Below are positions 6,909-60,444 of a stretch of 64,000 nucleotides of DNA, piece by piece. Source of the stretch: Leucothrix pacifica (GTDB lineage Bacteria > Pseudomonadota > Gammaproteobacteria > Thiotrichales > Thiotrichaceae); the NCBI RefSeq assembly GCF_003172875.1, contig NZ_QGKM01000002.1, forward strand, positions 1-64,000. Reading direction: 5' to 3'. Both the position numbers and the translations under genes were made by a program. The notes beneath the pieces were generated by a model. It ran no database searches, was not told the origin of the DNA, and was given only the letters and a program-made list of their open reading frames with translations. How positions within the stretch are numbered: the first letter of the stretch is position 1; every line of letters starts with the position of its first letter.

Positions 6909-7583
6909 TTAAGATCGAAATAAACGTGAATATTGTGTTTCATGCTGCGCGCTTAAAATAGCCAGCATGGGAAGGCCGGAGCCAATGGCCTCATCAGTGA
7001 TATTGGCGGAATGCTCAACTAATGCCGGAATCTCCTGCAACAGCTCACCCATCAGTCGTTGCCCGTCGGTTTGCCCCAATGGCACTAATTTAATTGCTGC
7101 TGCGACCTGATTCTCCATCCAGGACCACACCAGTCCGGTTGCCGCCTGTGTCGCTTGAATGTCCCAACGCACCGAGGCCAAGGCAAACATGGTGGTAAAA
7201 CTCACTGCCTCTCCACGCTCCCAATACTCAGTGCCAACCATCCCTAAGTCCCTCAGTAAGCGCGATAAAGCCACGCCCATATGAGAGTCTTCAGCGAATA
7301 ATTCGGCAGCCTCGCGCTGCGCAAATAGCTGCTCATTCAACAGACGCAACTGCTCCTTATCATCCTGCTGCCATGCTTGATACAGACGAAAGAACATCGG
7401 TACTTCCAGGCGACTGAGACCACTGTGCATAATGCTGCGAATCCACTGCACAGCGGATTGATAGTCTTTCAACAAGCCCATCTCAACCGCAGACTCCAAC
7501 CCCTGTGAATAGGCAAACGCCCCCACTGGTAAACTTGGACTGGTCAGCTGCATCAAGCGCATATAAGCCATCGACTCAGCCAT
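6909..7583 (-). CDS. ureF: Urease accessory protein UreF
   Basis: 224 residues from ATG 7583, which overlaps the ureE stop by 8 bases and is preceded by GGTGGG within the His-rich ureE 3' end. The frame stays open further upstream but there it lies inside ureE. The [20 protein letters not shown] opening and overall length match UreF, the scaffold that binds UreD and UreG and gates nickel insertion. An ATG four codons later (7571) is an alternative start. Confidence 0.93.
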
Positions 7584-36586: not shown

Positions 36587-37528
36587 TCACTCTTGTCGGT
36601 ATTTGGGCAGAAAATCTACCCCTGATTCGATAAAGAAATTAAACAAAGCCTCTGCCGCAGGGGCTAGGTCTATATTCTTATGGCGTACCACCAGCCACTT
36701 ACGAATCACTGGTAAACCTTCGATATCAAACTCTTTAAGTCGCCCGTCTTTTAACTCATCAGCCACGGTATGTGCCGATATCAAAGCGATACCCAAACCA
36801 GCCATCACTGCCTGCTTAATCGACTCGTTATTACCCACTTCCATACCTGGACCCGGGTTAATCCCAGCCTCTTCAAACAGTTTCAGCATCACCAGTCGGG
36901 TACCTGAGCCTTCCTCCCGAACCAAAAAAGTTTCGTCTGAAAACTCTTTAAAACCTAGCTTCTTCTGATTAATCAACGGATGATCAGGCGGCCCGATAAT
37001 GATGTGCGGATGATCACCAATCACCACACTTTCCATATCCATATCTTCCGGTGGACGACCGACTACCAGAAAATCAAATTCGTAATTCCGAAACGCTTTA
37101 AACACACTCTCCCGGTTACCAATGCGTATTCTGACATCCACATTCGGGTGCGATTTTTTAAACTCCGCAATCAATCTTGGCGCAAAATAATTTGCCGAAT
37201 TGAAGATCCCCAACGACACCCGGCCACTGGTTCTGTCACCCAATTTTTGCAATGAGGTCTGGCACATTTCCAGTACATTTTCGATACGCGAAGCCGCCAG
37301 CAAAATTTCTTGCCCGAAGTCAGAAGGCTGGACACCATCCGGCCTTTTCACCACCATCGATGTGCCCACATTATCTTGTAATAAGCTCAACTGTTGAGAC
37401 ACCGCAGGGGGTGAAATATGCAGGATATTAGCCGCTCCTTTGATCGTTCCAGCGCGCACATAAGCCGTGTAAGCACGAAATTGCTTGAGGGTAATGCGAT
37501 CCAATTTGGGCGTTATATTTTTTTTCAT
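36587..37528 (-). CDS. LysR-family regulator (CbbR/CcmR-like), at the downstream end of the carboxysome operon
   Basis: 313 residues. N-terminal winged HTH (LKQFRAYTAYVRAGTIKGAA, ISPPAVSQQLSLLQ) and a periplasmic-binding-like effector domain with VGRPPED, IIIGPPDHPL, REEGSGTRLVMLKLFEEAG and IKQAVMAGLGIALISAHTV, all typical of the CbbR group. It lies downstream of the sulP gene on the same strand. It probably controls carbon-fixation or inorganic-carbon uptake genes. A perfect palindrome lies 21 nt before its start. Confidence 0.88.
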   Translation of the reverse strand: MKKNITPKLDRITLKQFRAYTAYVRAGTIKGAANILHISPPAVSQQLSLLQDNVGTSMVVKRPDGVQPSDFGQEILLAASRIENVLEMCQTSLQKLGDRTSGRVSLGIFNSANYFAPRLIAEFKKSHPNVDVRIRIGNRESVFKAFRNYEFDFLVVGRPPEDMDMESVVIGDHPHIIIGPPDHPLINQKKLGFKEFSDETFLVREEGSGTRLVMLKLFEEAGINPGPGMEVGNNESIKQAVMAGLGIALISAHTVADELKDGRLKEFDIEGLPVIRKWLVVRHKNIDLAPAAEALFNFFIESGVDFLPKYRQE

Positions 37529-37548
37529 GACTGCACTCCTCCTTCAGT

Positions 37549-37564
37549 AGCAGAATATTCTGCT
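37549..37564. promoter_or_regulatory. Perfect 16-bp palindrome upstream of the LysR gene
   Basis: AGCAGAATATTCTGCT is centred about 28 nt before the LysR start codon and could be an autoregulatory operator. This is a position-based inference. Confidence 0.5.
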
Positions 37565-37722
37565 CAGGTGATTGACTGCTTGGTTTCGATAACGATTTAC
37601 ATGGCCAATCACCGTAAAATTGTTAGCTCAAATGATCACCTACATAGTCTTCCTCATTAGTGATCAGGGTCAAGCAGTAGCGCATCATCCTTTGGCTATA
37701 TAGCTATCCCGCCATATTTTTG

Positions 37723-39390
37723 CTATGCCTTCGGCTTGTCTTGCTTAACCTTTAACAACGCGCCTTCAAGCGCCACCTCCCGGCTATCTTTAATACTATC
37801 AACACCAAGTTGATCTAATAATCCTAAATTTTTCAAACGTTTAATCGACTGTTCACAGGCACCGGCAATAAATACCGAGCGCCCTGCTCTCACCATATCT
37901 AAGATGGCTTCCTCCAAAGCCAAAGCCGCAGAAACGCCCAAATAACTCACATCCGTCATATCCACTACCAACGAGCGGTAGCCCTCAACTTCTGAATTTT
38001 TACGACTAATCACCCGCGATGTACCGAAGATCATTTTGCCGCGCATATAAAACAACAGAATGTGATTCTCGGCCTCTTTCATTAAGGCGTATTCGCGCTC
38101 GTTGAGTTCTAAATCCGACTCATCCGGATTGGTCACTGCTTTAACATCATCGGCCTGTAATTTTGACAACCGCGTAATAGTAATAACATTGGCCACAAAC
38201 AAACCGATTCCCACGGCCACAATCAAATCAACAAAGACGGTCAGCATAATCACGCCATAGGTAATCACCGTACCTTTACTGGATACTCTGTGCGCACGTT
38301 TTAGATAACCCCAATCGATAATATTGATGCCGACTTTAAGTGCGATGCCAGCCAGCACCGCTAGCGGAATAACCTCTGTCAGTCCTGATGCCCAGAACAC
38401 CACAATCACTAGTAGGGCGACTCTGACCAGTCCGGCAAGTGCTGATCGTGACCCCGCCTGAATCCCCACCACCGTGCCCATGGTTGCACCAGCACCCGGC
38501 AATCCACCAAACAGACCAGACATAACATTTCCCAAACCCTGGCCGATCAACTCCTTATCAGAATTATGCTGCTTATGCGTCAGGCTATCTGCCACCACTG
38601 AAGTTAATAAGGCATCAATACAGCCCAATACACCCAGCACAATGGCATCGACAAACATAATCTGCCATTGCTCGATACTAAACACAGGCATTCTGAACTC
38701 TGGAATGCCGGATGGGACCTCACCAATACGGCGCACATCATCATTTGCCAACAACAATACTGAAATCAGCGTCACCACCACCAGCGCCAATAACTGCGGC
38801 GGAATGTAACGGTTAATTCTGGCTGGCATCAAAAACAAAATGGCAACCGTCAGACCGCCCAACAACAACTCACTCAACTTGATGTCAGCAAACTGCGCTG
38901 GCAGATTTTGCAAAATCGTAATCACACCACCCGCAGGATTTGCATGCCCAAGTAAAGGCCCGATTTGCAGGATAATCAGAATAATACCAATGCCAGACAT
39001 AAACCCTGACACCACACTGTAGGGCATCATGGTCACAAACTTTCCCAGACGCATTACGCCAAAGAACATCTGAAACAATCCCGCCATCACCACCACGGTA
39101 AATGCCATGGCCATGCCCTGCTCAGGATTGGCTGCAATCAGCTCTGCAATCACCGCAGTAAACACCACGGTCATCGGGCCGGTAGGCTCTGACATTAAGG
39201 TCGGCGAACCACCAAATAAGGAGGCAAAAAGCCCCACCAAAATAGCACCGTACAGACCTGCTTCCGCACCCGCACCAGAAGCCACACCAAAGGCCAATGC
39301 CATGGGCAGCGCAACAACGGCGGCAGTCATCCCGCCAAAAACATCACCTCGAATATTGCGAAAATTGATTTCATTTAATATACGCATCAT
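37723..39390 (-). CDS. SulP-family anion transporter with STAS domain, probable bicarbonate transporter
   Basis: 555 residues. About eleven membrane segments carry SulP motifs (ALPMALAFGVASGAG, EPTGPMTVVFTAV, GLFGGLPGAGATMGT), followed by a cytoplasmic STAS domain from about residue 430 (VVDMTDVSYLGVSAALALEE). SulP proteins exchange or co-transport sulfate, bicarbonate and other anions. Its place at the end of the carboxysome operon, after csoS1D, makes bicarbonate import the likely role. No carbonic-anhydrase domain is fused to it. Confidence 0.88.
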   Translation of the reverse strand: MMRILNEINFRNIRGDVFGGMTAAVVALPMALAFGVASGAGAEAGLYGAILVGLFASLFGGSPTLMSEPTGPMTVVFTAVIAELIAANPEQGMAMAFTVVVMAGLFQMFFGVMRLGKFVTMMPYSVVSGFMSGIGIILIILQIGPLLGHANPAGGVITILQNLPAQFADIKLSELLLGGLTVAILFLMPARINRYIPPQLLALVVVTLISVLLLANDDVRRIGEVPSGIPEFRMPVFSIEQWQIMFVDAIVLGVLGCIDALLTSVVADSLTHKQHNSDKELIGQGLGNVMSGLFGGLPGAGATMGTVVGIQAGSRSALAGLVRVALLVIVVFWASGLTEVIPLAVLAGIALKVGINIIDWGYLKRAHRVSSKGTVITYGVIMLTVFVDLIVAVGIGLFVANVITITRLSKLQADDVKAVTNPDESDLELNEREYALMKEAENHILLFYMRGKMIFGTSRVISRKNSEVEGYRSLVVDMTDVSYLGVSAALALEEAILDMVRAGRSVFIAGACEQSIKRLKNLGLLDQLGVDSIKDSREVALEGALLKVKQDKPKA

Positions 39391-39406
39391 GCTTAACCGC
39401 TATTGA

Positions 39407-40036
39407 TTAATACCCTGACTGTTGGTTTAAGTTAGCAATTGCCCGCTCTGCCGCGAACATCGCTTGCTGTGTTTCGGCTTCGCTGCCCATCATGATCAAA
39501 CGACCAAATGAGCCGAAGGCTTTCATATCCACCAGCGTCACATGCGCGCCCTTTTCCGCTTCATTCGCGGCGTAAACAATATATCCGGCTGGCTCTGTTT
39601 CTAAAATAAACATGCTCTTGCCCGGTATCATCATCGAGCCCATGCGCACCTGACGATTAATCAGAGTTGCGTGATCCGGTGTAATCGCACTAATGATTTC
39701 CTTCCAGGCGATTTTGCATTGGTCACGCTGAGAAATATCCTGTCGTATTTCCTGTAAAATTGCGCCGCCTGCCGCTTGCACTTCACTCTGGTTGGAGTAA
39801 TGAATCTCCATCGAACCAAAAGCACGCTCAACCACCTGCTGGCCAAGTCGAACATTGGTTTGTTTCAGGGCGATATCACTCAGGCGATGCACTGCCATAC
39901 TGGGCGACACTTCAATCCACAAACAAGCATCCCCCGGAATCGGCAGGAACCCTTGCGAAGACGTACCAAGGTACGACGCTAACTGTGGTTGCAGCGAGTC
40001 AATAAATGAATAAACCCGCAGATTGACGTTATCCAT
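39407..40036 (-). CDS. csoS1D: Carboxysome tandem-BMC shell protein CsoS1D
   Basis: 209 residues with two BMC domains. The first has [19 protein letters not shown] and [13 protein letters not shown]; the second has [20 protein letters not shown] and [14 protein letters not shown]. These are close to CsoS1D of cyanobacterial and proteobacterial alpha-carboxysomes, a pseudohexamer with a large gated pore thought to pass metabolites such as RuBP. Located just after cbbO. Confidence 0.9.
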
Positions 40037-40052
40037 GCATAAAGCCCATGTG

Positions 40053-42419
40053 TTATTTCGTTAACCCCAAATACAGGGAAGGTAGTTTTTCAGGCAGCCG
40101 CGACACATGATCCAGCACCAGATAATTCTTTTGTCCGAAGATATTCGAGACGTAATCGTCGGCATAAGGATCAAGGCTCAGGCAGAAGGTTCTGACGCCA
40201 TTTCGGGCCAAATCTTCCACCGCTTTTTTTGTGTCGTAGCGCAGGTATTGCGGGTCGCGTACATCGTTATCGGCTGGCTCACCATCGGTCAGCAATAACA
40301 CCATTTTCTTTTCACTGGCGCGTTCATTCAGTAATGATCCGGCATGACGTAATGCAGCGCCCATGCGCGTTGAAAGCTGCCCCGTCATACCTGCCAAACG
40401 GCCTTTCACGGTATCGTTATACGGTGAGTCAAAATCCTTGATGCGGTAATACTCCACATCGTGGCGTCCATTGGAATCAAAGCCATGGATGGCAAATGGG
40501 TCTCCCACTTTATCCAATGCTTCGGCCAGTAATGCAGCAGCATCCCGCGCTAAATCCAAGACCGTCACGCCTTCTTCATCGGCATCGCGCACTTCATCAT
40601 TGGTCGATTCAGACAGGTCAATCAACAGCACAACAGACAAGTCACGTATTTGCAGATGTGTGCGAATATTGATGCGTGGGTCAGGCTGTATTCCCATGCG
40701 AATATCAACCATGGCATTCACCGCAGCATTGATATCGATGGTATCGCCGTCTTCCATTTTTCGTTCGCGCACCACACCTTGTGGTTGCACCGCTTCAATC
40801 ATGTGTTTGATACGTTGGATAATGTGTTTGTTGTCTTCAACCGCATTATCAACCTCAACCGGATCTCCCATTTTCGGGCGCTTCTCCAGCAGCGTGACCC
40901 AGTTAGGTCGCTCCAACTGCGTTTGATAATCCCACTCAGGATAATTCACTGGAGAAGATACCGGCGGCTTGCCTTCCCGCTCGTTTAGCGACGTCCCGTC
41001 ATCATGGAAAAACTCAGTCGCTAGCACCCAGATTTCCTGCGCATCGTCCGTCGCTTCCTGCACATCGAGATTATTCAACATCTCCATCACGCTAACATAT
41101 TTTCTAACCTGCTTAACCTGACCCGGAAGGAGTATCTGGTCTATCTCGCTTTCCTGATCCTCCCACAAATAGCGGTTGTCATCGCGGTATGGATTGCTAG
41201 GTTTGTCCTTGTTTACATTGAAATTAATGCCCAATGAAATCGCCTTATCCGCTAATACCACACCTATTTCATGAGCCAGCCTGTCATCTTCCAAACGATC
41301 TTCCGCTGAGTAAAACAGCTCTCTCGCAGCGAGTACTAATGGATGGGAATCATTGTAATTTTCATCCAATAAAGCGCGGACGATTCGATCCAATAATACA
41401 GAGCGGTCATCACTATCTGTCTGTGGAGTGGTTTGTGAATTGACCGGCAATAAACTCAACCAAAGCTGCTTCAACCCCGGAAATTTTTGTACAGCCAATG
41501 CCTCGATACGTGCATCTTCAACCAAGCCAATCAGCATTTTTTGCACTGGATTAAACGTGCTGGGAATATCATCAACTTGCGGTTCGCAGCGCGAATGAAC
41601 GAAGTGCGCAGCAACATGTGCGGCAGCAGCCCGATAGATTTCTAAGCCACCGACTTTATCGCCACCATCCAGCCCAAAATCATCAAAGGCGTCCGGCAAG
41701 TGAATAAAATAATGCTCGATGTAGGGTCGATAACCTTCGCGCGTTTCAAAGTCTCCTGAAGTCGGACGTAAGAAGAAATCCTGCCCCCAAAGAGCGCGTA
41801 AATACATGATCAAACGACGTTGCACATCCACAAATAAGGTGCCACGCTGCTCCTTTTTCATGATGGCCATAGCCTCATCGCTATCTAAACCAAAGTACGC
41901 AACCTGCGCTTCAAAATCATTTTTATAAGCAGATACACCCCACATCGCCCAGCGGCGTAAACCACCCAAAGTGAGATAGCCCAGTAGCACTTCCAGCTTA
42001 CCTAACATAGGACGTAATGAGCGCGGAGCCTGTGCCAACATATTATTAAGCAGCATGAGATAGCCTTTGAATAAGCCTATTTCACCCATGCGGGCAGCGG
42101 CAGAAGGCGCAGTCGAAAACAACAACACCAACACTTCAGCACTGGTTCGGGAGTACATTTTGATGGCAGAGGAAAGTAGCTCCGCGACCGCATCTTCACC
42201 GATTTCCCGCGCCACTTGCGGCGCACTTTCAATAAATGAAACCACCAGATCCGTGCCACGACCAAGTGATTTTAGACCGGATGCACCACGCAGATAGGTA
42301 TCAAGCCCACGAGGAGAGAAGACACGCGCGGCTTCATGCCAATTAGCCTCCAGGACTTCATTGGCTGTTTCACCCAATTCATCAAGTACATCTTGATAGT
42401 CGCTGAGTTGAATTGCCAT
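40053..42419 (-). CDS. cbbO: Rubisco activase subunit CbbO (von Willebrand A domain)
   Basis: 788 residues. The C-terminal VWA domain (about 590-785) has the MIDAS motif DLSES and the segments MGAALRHAG and [12 protein letters not shown]. CbbO binds a CbbQ hexamer and remodels inhibited Rubisco. Its partner cbbQ is not adjacent but lies at 59629-60444, more than 17 kb away. Confidence 0.93.
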
Positions 42420-42485
42420 TTATTCGATATCTCCACTTGATGTCTCGTGTGCCGCAACGTTATTTCTTTTGCACGCTCCGCGAGA

Positions 42486-42995
42486 TTAATCTGGCCAGAT
42501 TCGGTCTGGATGTGTGGGTAACTTGTCGTTATTCAGATCGATGGTTTGCTCCAAACCGGAGTCTGTCACCATGCTTTCTAGCTTTGCTTTAGGCGTTTTT
42601 TTAGCAGCTGGCTTTTTCACCGCCACTTTCTTTGGTGCTGCCTTTTTTGGCGTTGTTGTTTTCTTTGCTACCGGCTTTTTAGCTGAAGCTGTTTTCGCTG
42701 TTGACGTCGTTTTTTTAGCACTAGCAGCCGTGGCAGTCTTTTTAGCTGCCGTCGTTTTACTGACAGGCTTAGTTGCAGCTTTGGCCTTACTCGCTGCTGT
42801 TGTTTTCTGTGCAGCCGGTGCTTTTGGCTTAGCTGGTGGCTTTTTGATTGCAGCTGTTTTTCCTGCTGGTTTAGTAGCAGCTGTCGTCTTTTTTACCGCT
42901 GGCTTAGCAGCAGTTTTAGCCGTCGTCGCACCGGCTGTCTTCGCACTGGATGTCTTAGCCGTATCAGCCGCTTTTTTATCATCAGAATCATTCAT
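42486..42995 (-). CDS. Lys/Ala-rich histone-H1-like protein inside the carboxysome operon
   Basis: 169 residues. Residues 10-135 are almost only Lys, Ala, Thr, Pro and Ser, with AKKT/AAKK/KKPA repeats as in eukaryotic H1 tails, AlgP and other bacterial H1-like proteins; the net charge is strongly positive. The last 30 residues differ: acidic and ending THPDRIWPD with one Trp. Other alpha-carboxysome operons often carry mcdA/mcdB here; McdB proteins are disordered with a C-terminal Trp, but no ParA/McdA gene is seen in the window. It may bind nucleoid DNA or bridge it to carboxysomes. The operon position is clear; the function is inference. Confidence 0.8.
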   Translation of the reverse strand: MNDSDDKKAADTAKTSSAKTAGATTAKTAAKPAVKKTTAATKPAGKTAAIKKPPAKPKAPAAQKTTAASKAKAATKPVSKTTAAKKTATAASAKKTTSTAKTASAKKPVAKKTTTPKKAAPKKVAVKKPAAKKTPKAKLESMVTDSGLEQTIDLNNDKLPTHPDRIWPD

Positions 42996-43007
42996 GCCAA
43001 ACGCTCC

Positions 43008-43277
43008 TTAAGCTGCCTGCTGCGTTAGCAAGGCGTCGGTTTGCTCAGCAAACTGATATTCCCGACTACCCAGCTCATCCGCATCACTTTCAATACTCAC
43101 ATTCACCTGAGTACGGGTAAAATTGAGATTCGGGTAATAACCTGCTTTCTCTGAAACATCCGCGAGATCATCCAAAAACTGACGCAACGCATCATAAGTC
43201 TCAAACTGGAAGCTACGGCTAATATTGGCGGGACGCTTACTGACTTTCCACGCCTGATCAAGGTTTTCAGCACTCAT
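43008..43277 (-). CDS. Alpha-carboxysome Rubisco assembly factor (acRAF, PCD-like)
   Basis: 89 residues with a pterin-4a-carbinolamine-dehydratase-like fold: SRSFQFETYDALRQFLDDLA, KAGYYPNLNFTRTQVNVSI. This degenerate PCD-like protein is a Rubisco chaperone found in alpha-carboxysome operons. It lies between the csoS1 genes and the H1-like gene. Confidence 0.87.
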   Translation of the reverse strand: MSAENLDQAWKVSKRPANISRSFQFETYDALRQFLDDLADVSEKAGYYPNLNFTRTQVNVSIESDADELGSREYQFAEQTDALLTQQAA

Positions 43278-43300
43278 AGTCTACTCTCCACTATTATTAA

Positions 43301-43339
43301 AAGAGGATGCGCTACGTCTGCTTGTGTCGCAGCACATCC
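43301..43339 (-). terminator. Attenuator hairpin between csoS1 and acRAF
   Basis: Arms at 43305-43316 and 43328-43339 form 12 pairs in the minus-strand RNA, two of them G.U (these would be mismatches on the plus strand), followed by CUCUUUUAAU. It should lower transcription past the abundant shell genes. Confidence 0.65.
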
Positions 43340-43360
43340 CATTTAAACCGATAGGAATCA

Positions 43361-43648
43361 TTACGAGCCAGGCAGAATGCTTTCCACTTCAGAATGTACA
43401 CGTGCAATGATGTGCGCAGCGACGATACCATCACCTACTCGCTCACATGCATCCGCACCAGCACGAACTGCTGCATTGACCGCGCCGGTTTCACCACGGA
43501 CTAAAACAGTCACGTAACCACCGCCAACAAACTGACGGCCAACCAACTTTACTTCTGCCGCCTTAGTCATTGCGTCTGCCGCTTCGATAGCCGGAACCAG
43601 ACCGCGGGTTTCAATCATACCTAAGGCAATACCTGTTACATCTGCCAT
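43361..43648 (-). CDS. csoS1: Carboxysome hexameric shell protein CsoS1 (second copy)
   Basis: 95 residues, single BMC domain: [57 protein letters not shown]. Forms hexamers tiling the shell facets. Nearly identical to its upstream paralogue apart from the C-terminus. Confidence 0.96.
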
Positions 43649-43689
43649 TTTCTTTCTCCTTGAGATAATTAATAATTAACCAACCGTCG

Positions 43690-44007
43690 TTAACCAACAG
43701 CTGCCTGGTCTGCAAGCTCACCTGCTTTCGGCAATATACTTTCAACTTCTGAATGCACACGCGCAATGATGTGTGCCGCAACGATACCGTCACCCACTCG
43801 CTCACAAGCATCTGCACCGGCACGAACCGCTGCGTTTACCGCACCTGTCTCGCCACGTACCAGAACCGTCACATAGCCACCGCCAACAAACTGACGACCA
43901 ACCAGCGATACCTCTGCTGCCTTTGTCATTGCATCCGCCGCTTCGATGGCGGGCACTAAACCACGTGTTTCAATCATTCCAAGGGCTACGCCCGTCACTT
44001 CTGCCAT
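43690..44007 (-). CDS. csoS1: Carboxysome hexameric shell protein CsoS1 (first copy, with C-terminal extension)
   Basis: 105 residues. The same BMC core as the 43361-43648 protein, plus about ten extra C-terminal residues ([12 protein letters not shown]). It probably arose by tandem duplication. The assignment to the A, B or C type is not attempted. Confidence 0.95.
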
Positions 44008-44096
44008 TTCATGCTCCTTAAACAGTTATTTCGCTGATTTACTTCTTCTATTGTTCTTTTTGCCTGACCCTTTTTAGATCAAACAAAAACCAATGC

Positions 44097-44354
44097 TTAA
44101 TCCCACTCCGCAGGATTCCAAAAATCGATAATGCCGAGAATCGTGAGATCGGTATGAATCTCAGGATCTCCCGTTCCAAATCGTGCCGCTGAGCCGCTAG
44201 AGGTAAACACCCACTTCCCCGCGGGTACTCCAATCGGGTCCGTTGCCACACTCAGTTTTCCGGCTCTGTCCGTCAGCACTCGCAGCGACATTTGTTTCAG
44301 TCCTGCGGTGCGTCGTGTTGCCACTAACTCATCAACCACCTGAAGAATTTCCAT
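44097..44354 (-). CDS. csoS4B: Carboxysome pentameric vertex protein CsoS4B
   Basis: 85 residues from ATG 44354, which follows the csoS4A stop within 2 bases and has GGAGCC upstream. The EutN/CcmL fold is marked by MEILQVVDELVATRR, DPIGVPAGKWVFTSSGSAAR and DLTILGIIDFWN. It forms pentamers that cap shell vertices. Confidence 0.94.
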   Translation of the reverse strand: MEILQVVDELVATRRTAGLKQMSLRVLTDRAGKLSVATDPIGVPAGKWVFTSSGSAARFGTGDPEIHTDLTILGIIDFWNPAEWD

Positions 44355-44355
44355 C

Positions 44356-44625
44356 TCAGGCTCCAGCCGGTGCGTCTTCCGGATTCCAGTGATCAATAAT
44401 TCCAACAATCGTCAGATCTGATGGAAAAGACTTGCTACCCGCCGCTTCACGCGCCGCTGATGAACTCACACAAATCACCCAATCCCCCGGCACACAACCG
44501 ATGGCATCAACCGCCACCAATGGCGTTGCACCAGCCTTATCACGCACCACGAGTAGCGGCTTATGCCCAAGCTCTGCCTGTCGATTGGTGGAAACCAAGG
44601 TTTTTTCGACCTTCATGATTCTCAT
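44356..44625 (-). CDS. csoS4A: Carboxysome pentameric vertex protein CsoS4A
   Basis: 89 residues. VEKTLVSTNRQAELGHKPLL, DAIGCVPGDWVICVSSSAAR and DLTIVGIIDHWN are diagnostic. The start overlaps the csoSCA stop (ATGA). Confidence 0.95.
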   Translation of the reverse strand: MRIMKVEKTLVSTNRQAELGHKPLLVVRDKAGATPLVAVDAIGCVPGDWVICVSSSAAREAAGSKSFPSDLTIVGIIDHWNPEDAPAGA

Positions 44626-46208
44626 GCTGACGCTCCTACCGTTTCTATGGCACTACCAGTGGGACGATCCTGAACCGAGAGATGGCAGACCAACAAACCT
44701 TTGCCATCCAAATCGGCATAACGCTCACGAATCGCCGCTTCCACTCGTTTCGCCTTCACCACCGTACGCTCACGCGACCCCGGTACTTTGGCGTTGTAGC
44801 GGTAATGAATCGCCACCGGAATCGGCAGTCCACGCGTCACATTCAAGCCCGTAAATATCTTGATACCAACATCCATATCCGCCACACCCTCTTCCAGGGT
44901 ATGCAGATGTGCGTAGTAGGCAATATTGCGCATTTGCACTTCATCAAAGCCATCACCAACACTGATATAACGCTCGGCATGCCCGATATCTGGGTAGCAG
45001 CCGTCATACAAATCTTCCACGTATTCAATCTGCGACAGATTGTTAATCAGCAAATTAGCGATCAACTTGCGCATTCCCTCGTGAGGTTGACCTTCACCTG
45101 CGCCCCAACCCGGAGATTGCTGATTCGGCTTGCTAATCGCTTCGTAAATCGCAACCCGCGCCTGATCCGCGCTGAGATTAATGGTGTCGCGGTATAACTG
45201 CGCATTATCAACCACCCGATGCTGCGACAAATCACCCTTGCTATCCGGTACATGTACCTTGATCGCATCGCTGTCCGTATCCACACCGATTAACAAAATA
45301 TCGGTACTCGCGCCGCAGCAGAATGTATTTTCAATCGCTTCACGGAACTGATTTAAACGCTCCAATGCTCCGTCCAATGCTGCGTGTTCATTGCTACCGT
45401 GAGCCGCACAACCCTGATGACTGGGATCACTGGAACTGGTGTGATACACCGCAATTTTCAGATAACGCGTTCCGGACTCCGGAGGCGTTGGCACACCCTC
45501 ACGGAACCGTCGTAACTCTGTTTCTTCCCAGTGGTGCACATCGGTTTCAACATCAAACAGTGCACCGGCATAAGCCTTGCGCCTCGTAAATGAGGACAAT
45601 GGCAAACGCAGAATATAGCGGGTTAAGCCTTTAAGACGACCATCCGCACAAGGACTGATATCCACCGCATGAAAGCCACAATCCAAAAAGAAATTCCGCG
45701 TATCTTCAACGGTCTCCAGCTGCTGATTCAGATCCTCAACAAACTGTGCCGCTGCCGCCTGAAGCGCTGAGAATGAGCACTGCGCATACAGCGCCTTCAT
45801 ATCCGCGCCACCAACCCAGGCCTTATCCAACAACTCTTCAGACAGATCAAAATCAAGCGTTTGTCTGGCAATACGCTGGGCGCTCTCAACAAAATCAGGG
45901 CCATAAGACAGGCCGGCAACTCGCTTCAGTGTCGGTAAAATAGCGTCAAATCTGCCTTTTACCGAATCCTCACAATGTGCCAAACGCGCATTGGTGTAAC
46001 CATCCGTTAAAAGATGCTGTGAGCGTCTTGCAGGCATTCCTGCTTTTTTCTGAAACACTCCGTCAGATGGCGAGGCATTGTTTTCAGAAACCGGCATAGG
46101 ATTTGCCAAACTCACCGGAGCGATCTGTCCGCCGCGTGGCTGTGTTTTGCCACGACGGCGTTCTGCTGCCTTCTGTGCTCTTAACTGATATGCGCCACGG
46201 GTATTCAT
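44622..46208 (-). CDS. csoSCA: Carboxysome shell carbonic anhydrase CsoSCA (CsoS3)
   Basis: 528 residues, the epsilon (divergent beta) carbonic anhydrase of alpha-carboxysomes. After a basic, disordered N-terminus come a helical domain (KRVAGLSYGPDFVESAQRIA), the catalytic domain (AVYHTSSSDPSHQGCAAHGS, ENTFCCGASTDILLIGVDTD) with Cys/His zinc ligands, and the C-terminal domain. It converts bicarbonate to CO2 for Rubisco in the lumen. Confidence 0.95.
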   Translation of the reverse strand: MNTRGAYQLRAQKAAERRRGKTQPRGGQIAPVSLANPMPVSENNASPSDGVFQKKAGMPARRSQHLLTDGYTNARLAHCEDSVKGRFDAILPTLKRVAGLSYGPDFVESAQRIARQTLDFDLSEELLDKAWVGGADMKALYAQCSFSALQAAAAQFVEDLNQQLETVEDTRNFFLDCGFHAVDISPCADGRLKGLTRYILRLPLSSFTRRKAYAGALFDVETDVHHWEETELRRFREGVPTPPESGTRYLKIAVYHTSSSDPSHQGCAAHGSNEHAALDGALERLNQFREAIENTFCCGASTDILLIGVDTDSDAIKVHVPDSKGDLSQHRVVDNAQLYRDTINLSADQARVAIYEAISKPNQQSPGWGAGEGQPHEGMRKLIANLLINNLSQIEYVEDLYDGCYPDIGHAERYISVGDGFDEVQMRNIAYYAHLHTLEEGVADMDVGIKIFTGLNVTRGLPIPVAIHYRYNAKVPGSRERTVVKAKRVEAAIRERYADLDGKGLLVCHLSVQDRPTGSAIETVGASA

Positions 46209-46213
46209 AAGCC

Positions 46214-48694
46214 TTAGCCTCTTGCCCCGCCAGATACTGTAATCACAGCACCTTCCGCACTATTACCACTACTGCCAGTCACTCGCGCTGCCGGCACTTC
46301 CGGACGCTCCATGCCTTTGTTGTGGTAGGCGTTATTCACCGGTTGCTGCATCTCACCAACACGTAACGTTGGATTACGGCCTTGAGCAACATGACCTTCT
46401 GTCCCTGTCATTCCCGGCGCACGTCCCCAGTTATCACCAGATACAGTAAAACCACCTTCGCGACCTTCACCGGTAATCCGCTGTGAATGCATCGCTGGTG
46501 CTTGCTCCACTGGCATCATTACTTGCTGCTGTGGTTGAGCCATCGCTTGCTGAGGCATCGGCGCTGGTTCAGCAGGTGCAAAATTCGCTTGCTGAACAGG
46601 AAGCTGAGCCGGTGCAGCCATAATCGGTGCAGGCGCAGGCGCGGCCATTTGGCGAGTATCCGGATAACGGAACTCCGGTGTTCCTGAAACTCGATTCGTC
46701 GCTAAATCACCAGGACCAGTCACCCGACCTGTATCGTGATAACCACCATGACTACCCGTAATTTGTGCAGCACGCGCTGGTGACACAATACTAAAGTCCT
46801 GAGGTGCTACTGGTGGGGCAGCCTGAACTGCTTGTTGTACCGGGTACTGCTGTGCTGGCACAGACGATGGCTGTTGCGCATAAGCTTGCGTGGCTTGTGG
46901 CTGTGACACCTGAGCTGCATGATGATGGGTTGGCGCGACGAGTCCCGCTGCTGCCGCTGCATCACGAACCGCACAAGAATCACAACATGAGCCATGATGC
47001 TGCGGAGCCTGAATACCTGCATAAGGCGTGCCACTCACCGGTAACTGAGCGCCATGCTCATTACCCGTGACATTGCCAACCGCACCGAGCATCGTTCCTG
47101 ATACATGCTCACCTTTCGGTGTGTGGTCCACTCCTACTTTAGCCGGAGCTGCCACTGGGGTGCTGGGACAGTGAGCGAACTGCTCTTGTCCGTAATAACC
47201 GGTGACGGGAAGACACCCACCCTGCTCGTCACCTGTCATCTTTGGGGAAAGATCAATACTATTCCCGGTTAAATGACCTCCATTTAAGGTGTGCATATTA
47301 TTAACTTTAGGCGCTGCGCCACCGCACAGCTTGCTCTCGCCATACTGCGTACCGGTCAGATGTGTGCATGAGCCAGGTTCATTACCCGTCACCTTTTCCG
47401 TGCGATCAACTAATGCACCCGTAATACGCTGCCCCTGAAGGCTATTATCAACGCCTACTTTGGCAGGATGTGGCGCTGCAATCGTTCCACAGACCGACGC
47501 AAACTGCTCATTAGAGATGTACTCCGTCCCCGTCACCGGACGACAACTACCGTACTCATCACCGGTCACAGCCGCTGAACGACCAACCTCTGTACCCGTT
47601 ATCGCCTGACCTGCAATTGTGTGCGTGAGTGCAACTTTTGATGGCCCGTTGATGGTCATCTTAGCTGCCCCCATATCCGCATACTGCGAACCAGTGATAC
47701 GATTGTTTGCACCGGCTTCACTGCCCGTTGCATTCATACGAGCCTCATCAACGCCGGTAATTCGGGTATCTGTTTTTTCCGAACGACCACTCATGACTTT
47801 GGCAGGCTTCGCAGACGGTTGAACACCGCAAAAGTTAGCCATTTTGTCCGCACCAATATACTCAGATCCGGTCACGCTCACACAACTGCCTTGCTCATCA
47901 CCCGTCACTTTATGGGAACGTCCGACCTCAGTACCACTCACAGCATTTCCACCACCCGTAATACTCAAGGCAACTTTCGGTGTATTCGGCTCCGGCTTAG
48001 TGCCGCAGAAACTGGCAAACTGCTCAGTTCCCACATACTCCGTGCCAGTGATCGCGCGGCAAGTTCCTTGCTCGTTACCCGTCACAGCCGTCGTGCGCTC
48101 AACTTGCGTGCCCGATACTTCATGACCTGCCAGCGTCGTACCCACCTCAACTTTCGGTGGAGCAACCGTTGGCCTTACCCGACCACTCGGGCGAGACACC
48201 GGCGCATCACCACGGCCCTTACTGGCCATTTCACTACGACGTAATTTAGCCAAGTCACGGCCATTGATTTGACCTGCTGCAAAAGCCATTGCTCTTGCAG
48301 CATTTCCACCACGACCCAAAGCGCTACTTTTGCTCGGAACTGCAGCTTTGCCTTTTGATGACAATGCCTTACGACGGTTACGACACAGTTGGCGCACATT
48401 GTTCAGGTCAGACCCCAACGCGGTCGGATTTGACTCCACGATCTCGCATAACTCATCCACCTCGCTACTGCCCGCATCACTCAGCTCAACACTCATGCTG
48501 GCCGGTGCAGAAAGAACAGTATCGGCAAGGGTTTCAGCGGCAGGAGCACTTTCCGGCTTCGCCGCTGGCTGGCTTTGGGTCTGAACAGCCGCTGGTCTTT
48601 CACGCCTACGACGATTCTGAGCACTCTTCAGTGCCGCCTGACGTCTGGCTTCATGCGCCTGTTGCTTTTTGTCAGCACTACTTAATGCAGGCAT
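46214..48694 (-). CDS. csoS2: Carboxysome scaffold protein CsoS2
   Basis: 826 residues, disordered. The N-terminal basic region has the Rubisco-binding repeats (RRQAALKSAQNRRRRERPA, LCRNRRKALSSKGKAA). Residues about 190-550 are M-repeats around VTGNEQGTC, ITGTEYVGTEQF and FCGT. The C-terminus ends with GAVITVSGGARG, which anchors to the shell. Unusually, residues about 560-740 include a His/Cys patch (HHGSCCDSC) and long Gln/Pro/Ala linkers between the M-repeats and the C-terminal repeats. Confidence 0.96.
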   Translation of the reverse strand: MPALSSADKKQQAHEARRQAALKSAQNRRRRERPAAVQTQSQPAAKPESAPAAETLADTVLSAPASMSVELSDAGSSEVDELCEIVESNPTALGSDLNNVRQLCRNRRKALSSKGKAAVPSKSSALGRGGNAARAMAFAAGQINGRDLAKLRRSEMASKGRGDAPVSRPSGRVRPTVAPPKVEVGTTLAGHEVSGTQVERTTAVTGNEQGTCRAITGTEYVGTEQFASFCGTKPEPNTPKVALSITGGGNAVSGTEVGRSHKVTGDEQGSCVSVTGSEYIGADKMANFCGVQPSAKPAKVMSGRSEKTDTRITGVDEARMNATGSEAGANNRITGSQYADMGAAKMTINGPSKVALTHTIAGQAITGTEVGRSAAVTGDEYGSCRPVTGTEYISNEQFASVCGTIAAPHPAKVGVDNSLQGQRITGALVDRTEKVTGNEPGSCTHLTGTQYGESKLCGGAAPKVNNMHTLNGGHLTGNSIDLSPKMTGDEQGGCLPVTGYYGQEQFAHCPSTPVAAPAKVGVDHTPKGEHVSGTMLGAVGNVTGNEHGAQLPVSGTPYAGIQAPQHHGSCCDSCAVRDAAAAAGLVAPTHHHAAQVSQPQATQAYAQQPSSVPAQQYPVQQAVQAAPPVAPQDFSIVSPARAAQITGSHGGYHDTGRVTGPGDLATNRVSGTPEFRYPDTRQMAAPAPAPIMAAPAQLPVQQANFAPAEPAPMPQQAMAQPQQQVMMPVEQAPAMHSQRITGEGREGGFTVSGDNWGRAPGMTGTEGHVAQGRNPTLRVGEMQQPVNNAYHNKGMERPEVPAARVTGSSGNSAEGAVITVSGGARG

Positions 48695-48721
48695 AGCAAT
48701 TCCTCACTCCGGTGAATAAAA

Positions 48722-49051
48722 TTACCCTCTGTATACAACGAAGGCCGTTCCCTGACTTTGGGTGTAGTTGTCGTAACCGATCAAACGAATATGATGATCC
48801 GGATACTCACGATGACAGGCTTCAACCTCTGCCAGCACAGAGTCAACACTCTGCTCACCGAAAAACGGAAGCTTCCACATAAACCAGTAATTACGCATCG
48901 CGCCTGACGGCTCAACGTGTTCTACCGCCGGGTTCCAGCCTTGAGAAATGACGTACTGAATTTGCGCACGTATTTCATCCGATGTAAGCGGTGGGAGATA
49001 AGAAAAAGTCTCAAACCGCATTTCCTGCTTATAATCTGCTACAGATGACAT
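48722..49051 (-). CDS. cbbS: Ribulose-bisphosphate carboxylase small subunit, form IA
   Basis: 109 residues. [31 protein letters not shown] and [20 protein letters not shown] are diagnostic. AAGGAG lies upstream of ATG 49051. It caps the Rubisco octamer. Confidence 0.97.
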
Positions 49052-49070
49052 CCTATTAACTCCTTATCAA

Positions 49071-50489
49071 TTAGCGATTCTGAACATCAAGCTTGTCGAC
49101 TGTATCGAACTCAAACTTGATCTCTTTCCATGTCTCCATGGCGATTTTCAATTCAGGGCTGGACTGAGCCGCTTTGGTGAGAATTTCCTTACCATTTCGC
49201 TCCAACTCAACACCGCGATTACGCGCTTCAACACAGGCTTCCAGCGCCACACGATTGGCCGCTGCACCCGCTGCATTACCCCAAGGATGTCCCAAAGTAC
49301 CGCCACCAAACTGCAGTACAGAATCATCACCAAAAATGCTCACCAAGGCAGGCATGTGCCATACGTGGATACCACCAGACGCCACTGCGAATACACCAGG
49401 CATTGAACCCCAGTCCTGATCAAAGAAAATACCGCGTGAACGATCTTCAGGAATGTAAGACTCACGCAACAGATCAATCCAACCAAGCGTGGACTCACGG
49501 TCACCTTCCAACTTACCCACAACCGTACCGGTATGTAGATGGTCACCACCTGATAAACGAAGGGCTTTTGTCAGTACGCGGAAATGAATACCGTGATGCG
49601 GGTTACGGTCCAGTACTGCGTGCATAGCACGGTGAATGTGCAGCAACATGCCGTTCTTACGACACCAGCGCGCCAAACCTGTATTTGCAGTCAAGCCACC
49701 CGTTAGGTAGTCATGCATAATGATTGGCGAACCAATCTCTTTTGCAAACTCAGCACGCTCATACATCTCTTCCGGAGATGCTGCTGTTACGTTGAGGTAA
49801 TGACCTTTACGCTCACCTGTCTGCGCTTGTGCTGTCTCAATTGCATCCTGCACAAATAAGAAACGATCTCTCCAACGCATAAACGGCTGTGAGTTGATAT
49901 TCTCATCATCCTTTGAGAAATCCAGACCACCACGAAGTACTTCATAAACCGCACGGCCATAGTTCTTTGCAGACAGACCCAGCTTAGGCTTGATGGTACA
50001 ACCCAGCATCGGACGGCCATATTTATTCATATGGTCACGCTCAACCTGAATACCATGCGGTGGGCCATTACAGGTCTTTACAAAGGCAATCGGGAAGCGA
50101 ACATCTTCAAGACGCAGTGCACGAACCGCTTTAAATCCGAATACATTACCCACCAATGAGGTGAATACGTTTACAACCGAACCTTCCTCAAACAGGTCAA
50201 TAGGATAGGCAATAAAGGCGTAGTAACATGAATCATCACCCGGTACATCTTCGATTCGGTAACAACGTCCACGGTAGTAATCCATGTCGGTTAATAAATC
50301 AGTCCATACTGTTGTCCAAGTACCTGTTGATGACTCAGCTGCAACCGCTGCTGCTGCCTCTTCGCGGTCAATACCGGGTTGCGGTGTGATTTTGAAGCAG
50401 GCCAGTAGATCGGTATCCAATGGGACATAATCTGGCTGCCAGTAGGTTTGCCGGTAATCCTGAACACCAGCGTTGTATTGCTTCGCCAT
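49071..50489 (-). CDS. cbbL: Ribulose-bisphosphate carboxylase large subunit, form IA
   Basis: 472 residues. Active-site segments are complete: [19 protein letters not shown] (catalytic Lys), [20 protein letters not shown] (carbamylated Lys with Asp and Glu), HIHRAMHAV and [19 protein letters not shown]. First gene of the carboxysome operon, divergent from cbbR. Confidence 0.98.
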
Positions 50490-50662
50490 TGATTTCTCCT
50501 TCCTTTTATTCAGTTGGGAATACTTGCCCGAATGAGGCTTATTTCGACTGTGTTTGATACTAAAAAATCGCTAGTCAAACTAAAAGTTAATAGTTATGAT
50601 GGGAATCATTAACTAAAGTAAATATAAGTATTTTCTAATATTATAACTCTCTACTTAAGCTT
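50490..50662. promoter_or_regulatory. Divergent cbbL-cbbR control region
   Basis: 173 bp, AT-rich, between the cbbL and cbbR starts. It contains a dyad AGTTATGAT (50592-50600) / ATCATTAACT (50605-50614). LysR regulators typically bind such dyads in the region between their gene and the target. The carboxysome operon promoter must be here or nearby. Confidence 0.55.
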
Positions 50663-51586
50663 ATGAATTTAAAGCACATAACCATCCATCAAATGCGTTT
50701 ATTTCACAGTTTGGCGAAACATTTATCCTTCACCGCCGTAGCAAATGAATTGCATCTTTCTCAATCCGGTGTGTCGATTCAGATAAAACGCCTATCAGAA
50801 ACCGTCGGAATTCCACTCATTGAAAAGATTGGAAAGAAGATTTACCTGACCGATGCGGGCAAAGAATTGTTCTACGCAACCGATGATGTGCTGACGCGTT
50901 TGGAACTGTTTAACGAAGACATTCAGGACATGGAACGCACCATAAGCGGCCCCTTGAGAATATCGGCGATCACCAGTTCCAAGTATTTTATGCCGCATTT
51001 GCTGGGGCGTTTTTTGAAGATGTACCCTGACGTTGAGCCATCGCTAACCATCACCAATCAATCCAAAGTTAAGACCCGACTCGCCGAAAATCTTGATGAC
51101 ATTTTCATAATGGGAAGCTACCCGGAGCACATGTCACTAGAGGCCAATTACTTTCTGGATAACCCACTGGTGTTTGTCGCACCGGTCGATCACCCATTGG
51201 CAAAAAAGAAAAACATACCGCTCTCTGCCATCGCTAATGAACGGTTTATCTCACGTGAGGAAGGCTCAGGCACCCGCGCCTTTAGAAATCGCTTGTTTGA
51301 GGAGAGTGGATTAAAGGCTAATACCTATATGGAAATTGGTAGTGCCGAGGCGATTAAGCAGGCGGTGATGGCGGGCTTGGGGATTTCGGTATTGTCGCTT
51401 TATAACCTGAAAATTGAGTTGGAAGCGGGGTTGCTGACGGTGCTGGATGTGCAGCATTTTCCGGTGCAACGGAAATGGTATGCGGTGCATCGGAAGGAAA
51501 AAAGGCTGTCGCGGACGGCTCAGAAGTTTTTGGAGTTTTTGTTGGATGAAGGGGGGAATGCGCTGCAGGAGGAGATGCTTAGGTAG
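50663..51586 (+). CDS. cbbR: LysR-family regulator CbbR
   Basis: 307 residues. HTH (MRLFHSLAKHLSFTAVANEL, LSQSGVSIQIKRL) and effector domain (SREEGSGTRAFRNRLFEESG, IKQAVMAGLGISVLSLYNL). It is transcribed divergently from cbbL, the classic position of CbbR, which activates the operon in response to metabolites such as RuBP or NADPH. A second CbbR-like protein is at 36587-37528. Confidence 0.93.
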   Translation: MNLKHITIHQMRLFHSLAKHLSFTAVANELHLSQSGVSIQIKRLSETVGIPLIEKIGKKIYLTDAGKELFYATDDVLTRLELFNEDIQDMERTISGPLRISAITSSKYFMPHLLGRFLKMYPDVEPSLTITNQSKVKTRLAENLDDIFIMGSYPEHMSLEANYFLDNPLVFVAPVDHPLAKKKNIPLSAIANERFISREEGSGTRAFRNRLFEESGLKANTYMEIGSAEAIKQAVMAGLGISVLSLYNLKIELEAGLLTVLDVQHFPVQRKWYAVHRKEKRLSRTAQKFLEFLLDEGGNALQEEMLR

Positions 51587-52755: not shown

Positions 52756-53688
52756 ATGTTGTACATGAAACAGTCAACTACCAACACTTCATCTGAAAAA
52801 ATAAGCAACTCCAGTTTAGCGCAACGGGAACGCTTGGCTTATATCGAGTTTCGATTATTTTTTCTCGGTGACATACGCAGACAAGATCTCATGGAGCGCT
52901 TCAGTGTTGCACCAGCCGCAGCAACCCGTGACTTCACACTGTACCGTGAGCAATGTCCTAACAATATTGATTTTGAAGGCAGCCGTAAAACCTACATATT
53001 AGGGAAAGCGTTTAAGCCCGTATTTGAACACAACATTGAACGCGTATTAATGATGTTATCGCGTGGCTTTGGGGGTGGTATCGGTCAGACGCAAGATGCT
53101 TTGTTATCATGTGAACTTCCTCCGGTGTCGAATCGCCCTTCGGCGGATATTCTGGCTCCAGTGACTCGGGCGATACACCAGCATAAAGCAGTGAAGATGC
53201 GCTACTTCTCACATTCTAGCGGACTATCAAAACGAGAAATTGTGCCATTTGCTTTAGCCAATGACGGTCTGCGTTGGCATGTTCGTGCTTTTGACCGTAA
53301 GTCTGGGGAGTTTCGGGACTTTGTGTTTACGCGTATGGAGTCTACGGAGCTATTGGCAGACAGCTTGCTGGCCAAGAACGAGTTGTCGGAACAGGATCAT
53401 CAATGGAATCGTGTTGTGGAGCTGGATATTGTTGCGCATCCTGATCGTGCCCATCCAGAGATTATTGAGCGGGATTATGGGATGGTGAATGGGGTATTGC
53501 ACTTGAAAATGCGAGCGGCAATGGCGGGGTATGTGTTGCGGCAGTGGCAGGTAGATTGTTCAAGTGACCACCGTATTGAGGATCTTGGGTGCCGATTGTG
53601 GCTGCGGGATGTGTTGGCGCTTTATGGGGTTAATAGTGCGGTGTTGGCGTTGGGTTACAAGAGCTCAAAACTTGGAAGGACAGAATGA
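52756..53688 (+). CDS. WYL-domain transcriptional regulator (BrxR/CapW-like)
   Basis: 310 residues. An N-terminal winged HTH (RERLAYIEFRLFFLGDIRRQ, RFSVAPAAATRDFTLYRE) is followed by a WYL domain (REIVPFALANDGLRWHVRAF, DFVFTRMESTELL) and a C-terminal WCX-like extension. This is the layout of BrxR and CapW, dimeric repressors found upstream of BREX, CBASS and other phage-defence operons. Its TGA overlaps the next start (ATGA), so it is the first gene of the operon. ATG 52765 is an alternative start. Confidence 0.87.
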   Translation: MLYMKQSTTNTSSEKISNSSLAQRERLAYIEFRLFFLGDIRRQDLMERFSVAPAAATRDFTLYREQCPNNIDFEGSRKTYILGKAFKPVFEHNIERVLMMLSRGFGGGIGQTQDALLSCELPPVSNRPSADILAPVTRAIHQHKAVKMRYFSHSSGLSKREIVPFALANDGLRWHVRAFDRKSGEFRDFVFTRMESTELLADSLLAKNELSEQDHQWNRVVELDIVAHPDRAHPEIIERDYGMVNGVLHLKMRAAMAGYVLRQWQVDCSSDHRIEDLGCRLWLRDVLALYGVNSAVLALGYKSSKLGRTE

Positions 53689-59628: not shown

Positions 59629-60444
59629 TCACCCAAAAAACGTCTGCACCGCCGCATTCAGCGTATCGCGCATATCTGGATCATCAGTCAGTGGCGTTAC
59701 CATGGTCATCGTACAAGCCGCTTCAGGATTCACCCCTTTACTAATTAACTGCCCTGCATAAACCAACAGTCGGGTAGATATCCCCTCATCCAAACCATGC
59801 CCTTTCAGGTTTCTGGCGCGGTGTGCTATTTGCACTAACTTCCCTGCGGTATCCGCATCCACACCAGACTCTTTTGACACAATCGAGACTTCCGTCTGCT
59901 CGGTTGGATAGTCAAAATCCATCGCTCCAAAACGCTGTTTAGTGGATTGTTTGAGATCTTTCATCATGCTCTGGTAGCCGGGATTGTAAGAAATCACCAG
60001 CTGAAAATCAGGATGCGCTTCGATCAATTCACCTTTCTTATCCAGCGGCAATGTGCGTCGGTGATCCGTCAAAGGGTGGATAGCAACCGTGGTATCCTGA
60101 CGTGCTTCAACCACTTCATCCAGATAGCAAATCGCACCGATACGTGCCGAGGTCGCCAGTGGCCCGTCCTGCCATTTCGTGCCGTCTTTATCTAACAGGA
60201 ATCGCCCCACCAAATCTGAAGCAGTCATGTCTTCATTACACGCCACGGTGATCAATGGACGCTTTAATTTCCACACCATGTACTCAACAAAACGCGACTT
60301 TCCGCACCCTGTCGGGCCTTTTAACATCATTGGCATGCGCGCACTGTAGGCCGCTTCATATAGCGCAACCTCGTCCCCGACCAATTCGTAATAAGGCTCA
60401 TCTTTTACCAAGTACTGATCATGTCCTGCGGGCTTGTCAAACAT
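59629..60444 (-). CDS. cbbQ: Rubisco activase AAA+ subunit CbbQ
   Basis: 271 residues. Walker A is GPTGCGKSRFVEYM, Walker B AICYLDEVVEA, sensor region QLVISYNPGYQSM, and the C-terminal STRLLVYAGQLI segment is typical of CbbQ/NorQ. CbbQ hexamers with CbbO (40053-42419) release tight-binding inhibitors from Rubisco. Here it is linked to rpe, fba and tkt, not to cbbO. Confidence 0.92.
   Translation of the reverse strand: MFDKPAGHDQYLVKDEPYYELVGDEVALYEAAYSARMPMMLKGPTGCGKSRFVEYMVWKLKRPLITVACNEDMTASDLVGRFLLDKDGTKWQDGPLATSARIGAICYLDEVVEARQDTTVAIHPLTDHRRTLPLDKKGELIEAHPDFQLVISYNPGYQSMMKDLKQSTKQRFGAMDFDYPTEQTEVSIVSKESGVDADTAGKLVQIAHRARNLKGHGLDEGISTRLLVYAGQLISKGVNPEAACTMTMVTPLTDDPDMRDTLNAAVQTFFG

Follow-up and report, generated by a model that had tools for sequence, protein, structure and literature searches.

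The closest described counterparts of the gene studied here are the α-McdBs, adaptors that work with the partner ATPase McdA, as in the McdAB system of H. neapolitanus. According to PMC11321042, α-McdBs share the C-terminal consensus R(V/I)WPD, in which WPD is invariant, and the C-terminal 10 residues of the H. neapolitanus protein are enough for association with the carboxysome. At the other end of that protein, McdA binding requires the first 20 residues, which are also sufficient for it, and carboxysomes are excluded from the nucleoid when residues 2–20 are deleted (PMC12204374). Type 2 α-McdBs are orphans encoded in the cso operon, with mcdAB elsewhere in the genome (PMC8262871). A different group of proteins, PhaF, PhaM and AlgP, organizes granules with Lys/Ala/Pro-rich tails, and KPAA-type peptides bind DNA in vitro (PMC9239181 and PMC13052382). 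The cargo of these proteins consists of PHA and polyphosphate granules, and in PhaF and PhaM the cargo-binding part is N-terminal.

We analysed a window of 64,000 nucleotides from Leucothrix pacifica (Thiotrichaceae; contig NZ_QGKM01000002.1, positions 1 to 64,000), which carries an operon of the α-carboxysome type in the order cbbL-cbbS-csoS2-csoSCA-csoS4A-csoS4B-csoS1-csoS1-acRAF-mcdB-cbbO-csoS1D-bicA (Table 1). The names acRAF and cbbO are ones that we assume from the Pterin_4a and VWA domain matches of these genes. Strand and spacing suggest that the cso genes share one transcript: 12 nt separate the acRAF stop codon from the mcdB gene and 66 nt separate mcdB from cbbO, all on the same strand. 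A scan of positions 37500–51000 returned nine promoter-like sites (15.1 in shuffles) and 25 terminator-like sites (12.7 in shuffles). On the minus strand, no terminator-like site fell in the interval from acRAF to cbbO; one, at 43681–43703, is located at the end of a csoS1 gene.

Table 1. Features of the carboxysome locus and its surroundings in the window
Feature	Coordinates	Strand	Evidence and remarks
BicA-like SulP transporter	37723..39390	-	NCBIfam NF050096, 821 bits, under the cut-off of 880
csoS1D/CcmP-like BMC shell protein	39407..40036	-	Pfam PF00936; NCBIfam CcmP 221 bits, below the cut-off of 340
cbbO-like gene (presumed cbbO), VWA domain	40053..42419	-	Pfam PF00092
Orphan α-mcdB (probable)	42486..42995	-	169 aa, Lys/Ala/Thr/Pro-rich, ATG start
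C-terminal motif DLNNDKLPTHPDRIWPD and stop codon	42486..42539	-	putative carboxysome docking, by analogy; P, HP, R and WPD positions invariant
Basic, predicted disordered tract, residues 21–140	42576..42935	-	net charge +4 to +7 per 20 residues; weak Pfam HC2 match
Pterin-4a-carbinolamine dehydratase-like Rubisco assembly factor (presumed acRAF)	43008..43277	-	Pfam PF01329
csoS1 shell protein	43361..43648	-	NCBIfam NF053791, over cut-off
csoS1 shell protein, second copy	43690..44007	-	nearly identical to the first copy by eye
csoS4B	44097..44408	-	TIGR02704, over cut-off; called start probably too far upstream
csoS4A	44356..44625	-	TIGR02703, over cut-off
csoSCA carboxysomal carbonic anhydrase	44622..46208	-	TIGR02701, over cut-off
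csoS2	46214..48694	-	Pfam PF12288
cbbS	48722..49051	-	Pfam PF00101
cbbL	49071..50489	-	Pfam PF00016, NF003252
cbbR-like LysR regulator, divergent	50663..51586	+	Pfam PF03466 and PF00126; best NCBIfam match is CbbR, under cut-off
cbbQ	59629..60444	-	Pfam PF08406

The sole CbbQ_C match of the genome (E 0.001) is the cbbQ listed above, at a distance of about 17 kb from cbbO, with which it is usually paired. Between cbbR and cbbQ sits an anti-phage defence module (52756–57139, plus strand) consisting of a gene for a WYL-domain regulator and, after it, matches to OloA and OloB that are close to full length (PADLOC, 358 and 661 bits), presumably an Olokun system. It is adjoined by a gene for a protein with AAA-ATPase_like and PD-(D/E)XK nuclease matches (57258–58805, plus strand).

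The putative mcdB gene is preceded by an AAGGAG located 8 nt 5′ of its ATG. A preliminary description, made from the sequence of the window alone, had reported a Lys/Ala/Pro/Thr-rich protein with an acidic end bearing a single Trp, and the composition confirms it: K 39, R 1, A 40, T 28, P 15, D 9 and E 2 in 169 residues, no F, Y or C, and W167 as the sole aromatic residue. Residues 21–140 are strongly basic, residues 141–169 are acidic and the protein ends in HPDRIWPD. Its charge–hydropathy value falls on the disordered side, and disorder, biased composition and low hydrophobicity are those of α-McdBs. AlphaFold2, run on the single sequence without an alignment, gave a mean pLDDT of 57.3 and a pTM of 0.13, with 14 of the 169 residues at pLDDT 70–90 and none above 90. 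Neither Pfam nor NCBIfam assigned a family at E 0.001. The abundance of K, A and P gives the protein the kind of tail found in PhaF/AlgP-type tethers, with which it shares no domain over cut-off. The histone H1-like nucleoprotein HC2 (PF07382) has a similar composition and matches residues 14–135 weakly (E 0.0019; 18.8 bits against a curated cut-off of 40); no phasin or HC2 model scored over its cut-off. An opposite-strand ORF (42514–43011, plus strand) mirrors the Lys/Ala codons of the gene. Recent expansion of the tail by slippage was dropped as an explanation after a repeat scan of the gene returned a single short 15-bp array of 2.3 copies. A protein search for a second copy in the genome retrieved only the gene itself and a noise match (E 0.31) containing stops, and no relative was found in the viral contigs searched.

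The preliminary description had suggested a relation to McdB, and the protein is almost certainly an α-McdB, judging from its C-terminus, its place in the operon, its co-occurrence with cso genes and the published consensus. Its end, RIWPD, fits R(V/I)WPD, and its gene occupies the interval between acRAF and cbbO. The order is represented by 63 genomes of a single family, Thiotrichaceae, 15 of which contain csoS4A. For the family, we listed operon-strand ORFs of 50 aa or more located in the acRAF–cbbO gap without selecting for the motif; 13 of the 14 other cso loci had one ending P.HP.R[IV]WPD. Considering that the listing ignored the motif, its presence in the gap exceeds chance. The P, HP, R, W, P and D positions are invariant in all 14 family McdBs, the window protein included, which bears out the expectation that the C-terminal Trp would be conserved. 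The exception, locus L039 of genome G061 (one contig), has an acRAF–cbbO gap of 41 bp without any ORF, and neither an R.WPD-stop match nor a clear α-McdA was found in that genome. An extra gene lies between mcdB and cbbO in six cso operons (L040–L045) of g8, the genus to which Thiothrix caldifontis belongs; the only one scanned (L043, 7720–8220, plus strand) gave SnoaL/CaMKII-association-domain matches.

The R.WPD pattern lies inside the operon in 14 of the 15 cso-positive genomes of the order, belonging to five genera, and matches in two of the 48 cso-negative genomes, one of these two matches not being stop-ended; a reversed control pattern matched in three of the 63. The preliminary description had proposed a link to carboxysomes and had named homologues free of cso operons as the evidence that would speak against it. 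The distribution is the opposite (14/15 cso-positive genomes against 1/48 cso-negative ones for stop-ended matches).

This association extends to the class, for which we searched 369 genomes. Seventy were cso-positive, including that of L. pacifica, and 70 further loci came from the 69 others. In these loci, R(V/I)WPD is the usual ending of the ORF that directly follows the ParA-type gene of the operon. acRAF was present in 77 of the 85 cso loci examined, 74 of the 77 with an R.WPD-ended ORF (exceptions L039, L107 and L116), and in 42 loci such an ORF directly followed a ParA/McdA gene (39, plus three after start correction). A scan of named genomes with an HPxR[IVM]WPD-stop DNA pattern retrieved at least 118 matches; among those listed, 102 were in a cso context (69/80 and 33/38), and the 16 that were not approach the number expected by chance (about 15 for the whole collection, by hand arithmetic assuming even base composition). 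In the genome of L. pacifica, the R.WPD-stop pattern, which is blind to AGA/AGG arginine codons, occurs once, in the mcdB gene. The same blindness applies to the DNA patterns in general, as in G264, which gave no match though its operon has an R.WPD-ended ORF, and they also miss other McdB ends, for example the STVWPD of G047, found beside its distant McdA. A third RIWPD-stop match in G018 (C26:45589–45606) lies outside the cso and mcdA loci and is possibly due to chance. In a phylum-wide sample, csoS4A was detected in two of 398 genomes, that of L. pacifica and G629. For comparisons across the class we assembled 77 McdBs, which, unlike the family set, were picked by their R.WPD end, so that the invariance of these letters within the 77 is circular. 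Seven of them (L088, L089, L101, L102, L125, L126 and L129) had over-long called starts, which were trimmed by eye, and alignment A2 and its Pfam scan cover the remaining 70.

No McdA had been noticed in the window by the preliminary description, and a genome-wide search extends this result. A profile built from 30 α-McdAs was run on 36 genomes (15 cso-positive genomes of the family, 19 of the class without operonic McdA and two positive controls). Scores split into 17 genomes with at least 275 bits and the rest with at most 113 bits. In the L. pacifica assembly (100% complete, 2.28% contamination, 146 contigs), the profile search found no α-McdA, the best match being Soj with 46 bits. The other ParA-family matches were, by eye, MinD, an Mrp-like gene, three large kinase-like ORFs and a contig-end ParA-like gene. 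ParA-like pieces with unknown genes adjacent are found at the ends of contigs C18 and C48 (L054 and L057), perhaps parts of one split gene; by eye, the McdA signature LPSPxDLW is absent from the C48 piece. A low score by itself leaves some room for a strongly diverged McdA, since in G115 a ParA of 96 bits, which may be a divergent McdA, precedes an RVWPD-ended ORF. This pair (L179) lies away from the cso locus of G115, in which no R.WPD ORF was found.

Within the family, clear α-McdAs were detected only in G018 and G047, in both cases away from the cso operon, and none was found in the other 12 of the 14 McdB-bearing genomes, of which 11 are at least 95% complete (G052 and G055 being single contigs) and one, G043, is only 74% complete. 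The McdAs of G018 and G047 are sisters (support 99, starred), in a McdA clade distinct from that of the McdAs encoded in the operons of the family's nearest relatives. Among cso operons outside the family, the nearest ones have mcdA–mcdB between acRAF and cbbO, a region that the preliminary description had named as the place of mcdA/mcdB in many α-carboxysome operons. A quick CsoSCA tree of 81 loci recovered 14 family operons as one group (SH-aLRT 91, not starred), that of G043 being too partial to place, with L095 adjacent to the group (82). They are nested in a set of 23 rows (98, starred) in which the eight other readable operons (L088–L095) have the order acRAF-mcdA-mcdB-cbbO and L100 is cut. 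As the family groups beside operons of this order, loss of mcdA in place from an operonic mcdAB would be the simplest history.

We built a profile from the first 30 residues of McdA-partnered McdBs and added the bias correction back to the scores. Among 42 held-out McdA-partnered McdBs, the median was 32.7 bits and the minimum 7.2 bits, two of the 42 lying within background. The window McdB scored 10.8 bits, and the internal background (25 stretches) reached 13.1 bits. The McdA-binding helix of type 1 α-McdBs is thus not recognizable by profile at its N-terminus, nor does the gene lie 3′ of an α-mcdA as those of type 1 do. Near-background scores were also obtained for 18 orphan McdBs whose McdA is encoded elsewhere or further along.

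The histone-like tail, which the preliminary description had treated as the defining feature, proved to be variable. Ranked by body net charge, the four most basic of the 77 α-McdBs (+37, +31 for the window protein, +29 and +24) all come from McdA-less genomes, three of them in the family; a hypergeometric value computed by hand for these four (about 0.002) takes no account of relatedness, and we place no weight on it. The window protein ranks second in length, fifth in Lys fraction and 16th in charge per residue, and 13 other McdA-less McdBs of the set are unremarkable. In the family, whole-protein net charge ranges from −5 to +34, with strongly basic tails in four genera and ORFs of up to 195 aa. 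One subclade of g8 contains seven McdBs, six of them from McdA-less genomes, with body net charges of only −2 to +1 and the C-terminus conserved, and G018 combines a basic orphan McdB (+16) with a distant McdA. Basic tails also occur together with McdA: Thioalkalivibrio McdBs encoded beside McdA reach a body net charge of +21, the Guyparkeria McdB L093, likewise beside McdA, matches HC2 with 25.8 bits (18.8 in the window protein), and the McdB of MAG BH20 (L248; 79 aa, net +19) has a McdA by eye. At about 7030–7550 of this BH20 locus, mcdA precedes a tandem pair of nearly identical mcdB genes, whose products appear by eye to combine an McdA-binding start with a histone-like tail. HC2 matched four of 70 McdBs at E 0.1, and the strongly basic family McdBs L047, L049 and L051 gave no match at E 1. 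The CsoSCA tree, on which 72 of the 77 McdBs could be used (the other five are second copies or come from loci lacking a long csoSCA), yields only six independent pairs with support whose members differ in McdA. With net charge of at least 20 as the cut-off, the McdA-less member was the more basic in 1.9 of the six on average, the reverse was seen in none and 4.1 were equal. With these numbers the test cannot reach significance, and none was obtained for an association of McdA loss with a basic tail at any of seven cut-offs.

What might such a protein do? In the reading that we favour, the adaptor was kept when its ATPase McdA was lost. Its last residues, HPDRIWPD, would dock it on the carboxysome, which by analogy with H. 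neapolitanus McdB is very likely. The 120-residue Lys-rich disordered tract would make non-specific, multivalent contacts with the nucleoid, and these contacts would hold carboxysomes passively on the DNA, as is thought for the granules of PhaF, PhaM and AlgP. A direct DNA tether had already been put forward in the preliminary description. We regard passive tethering by the tail as the most likely single function, although we give it somewhat less than even weight, and the same tentative standing applies to the whole chain of orphan α-McdB, C-terminal docking and DNA-tethering tail. That the ATPase-binding helix was exchanged for an H1-like tail, giving a putative one-protein, ATP-independent tether and ParA-free positioning, a PhaF-like solution derived from McdB, is a more doubtful proposal. 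The four highest body net charges, all from McdA-less genomes, and the precedents of PhaF and AlgP speak for tethering. Against it stand the window protein's rank of only 16th in charge per residue, the histone-like or strongly basic tails of the McdA-partnered McdBs of Guyparkeria, Thioalkalivibrio and MAG BH20, and the lack of a significant link in the six independent pairs; the neutral to acidic McdA-less McdBs of the g8 subclade argue against a simple replacement. The nucleoid exclusion seen after deletion of residues 2–20 in H. neapolitanus does not settle what a +31 tail does, because a Halothiobacillus McdB with the same landmarks (K7, K13, K17 and W94; L309) has a net charge of only +5.

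The explanation that ranks next after the nucleoid tether, possible though rather doubtful, is that the tail acts without DNA: a coat of McdB would separate carboxysomes or tune their assembly through charge or condensates, possibly with acidic cargo or shell partners. Condensate formation by McdB correlates with carboxysome association (PMC11321042). A bulk or condensate role would also suit a conserved disorder and C-terminus combined with a charge that varies freely within one family, and the near-background N-termini of the 18 orphan McdBs that do have a McdA in the genome. The strongly basic tails of four family genera, on the other hand, would suit an anionic polymer such as DNA. Those same differences among genera, up to a flip in the sign of charge, could instead reflect drift in a relic that retained only its docking peptide after McdA was lost, or in a gene that is disappearing, as the empty 41-bp gap of G061 and its lack of a pattern match genome-wide might suggest. 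We consider this improbable: 14 of 15 genomes, from five genera, retain both the C-terminus and the position in the operon, reading frames of up to 195 aa have remained open, and the repeat scan of the window gene showed just the one short array.

Replacement of McdA by another ParA-like ATPase appears less probable still. The candidates present in the genome are Soj, MinD and a ParA-like gene cut at contig ends (C18/C48). Next to them, inspection by eye showed ParB, MinC and unrelated genes; none scores within the α-McdA range, the C48 piece has no McdA signature by eye and no N-terminal helix is recognizable in the window McdB. Finally, the preliminary description had offered as its alternative an ordinary AlgP/H1-like nucleoid protein, which would be in the operon by chance. 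Composition and the HC2 match speak for it; the α-McdB signature at the C-terminus, the tight co-occurrence with cso genes and the lack of a second copy in the genome make it highly improbable, and it was dropped.

Features shared by the H. neapolitanus α-McdB and the window protein are an R(V/I)WPD terminus, whose Trp is the third residue from the end, a disordered chain of biased composition and a gene in the cso operon; the window protein differs in that no McdA was found in its genome and no McdA-binding helix is recognizable. It is also larger and more basic (169 aa and net +29, against 96 aa and +5 in L309). Like α-McdB type 2, it is an orphan inside the cso operon without a charged N-terminus, but type 2 was described as a second copy beside a genome's distant mcdAB, and no distant mcdAB was found in L. 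pacifica. Its likeness to PhaF, PhaM and AlgP would be one of working only, in that a cargo-binding part is joined to a Lys/Ala/Pro-rich tail. The window protein is best described as a variant, without McdA, of an adaptor already known: orphan α-McdBs as a class are in the literature, and the McdA-free state and histone-like tail constitute the variant. The protein itself may already be in the α-McdB list of PMC11321042, since its length equals the maximum of that set, which spans 51 to 169 residues. In the literature searched, mostly outside subscription journals, we found no report of an McdA-independent or DNA-tethering McdB.

These observations bear on the distribution of carboxysomes in bacteria that possess them but lack McdA, and on the role of an McdB that does not meet McdA, a question raised in a review (PMC8262871). 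Thiotrichaceae offer a natural series of McdA-less McdBs with tails from acidic to strongly basic, in which both questions can be tested with one protein and no ATPase. The McdB of L. pacifica could thereby show how carboxysomes stay in place without a motor.
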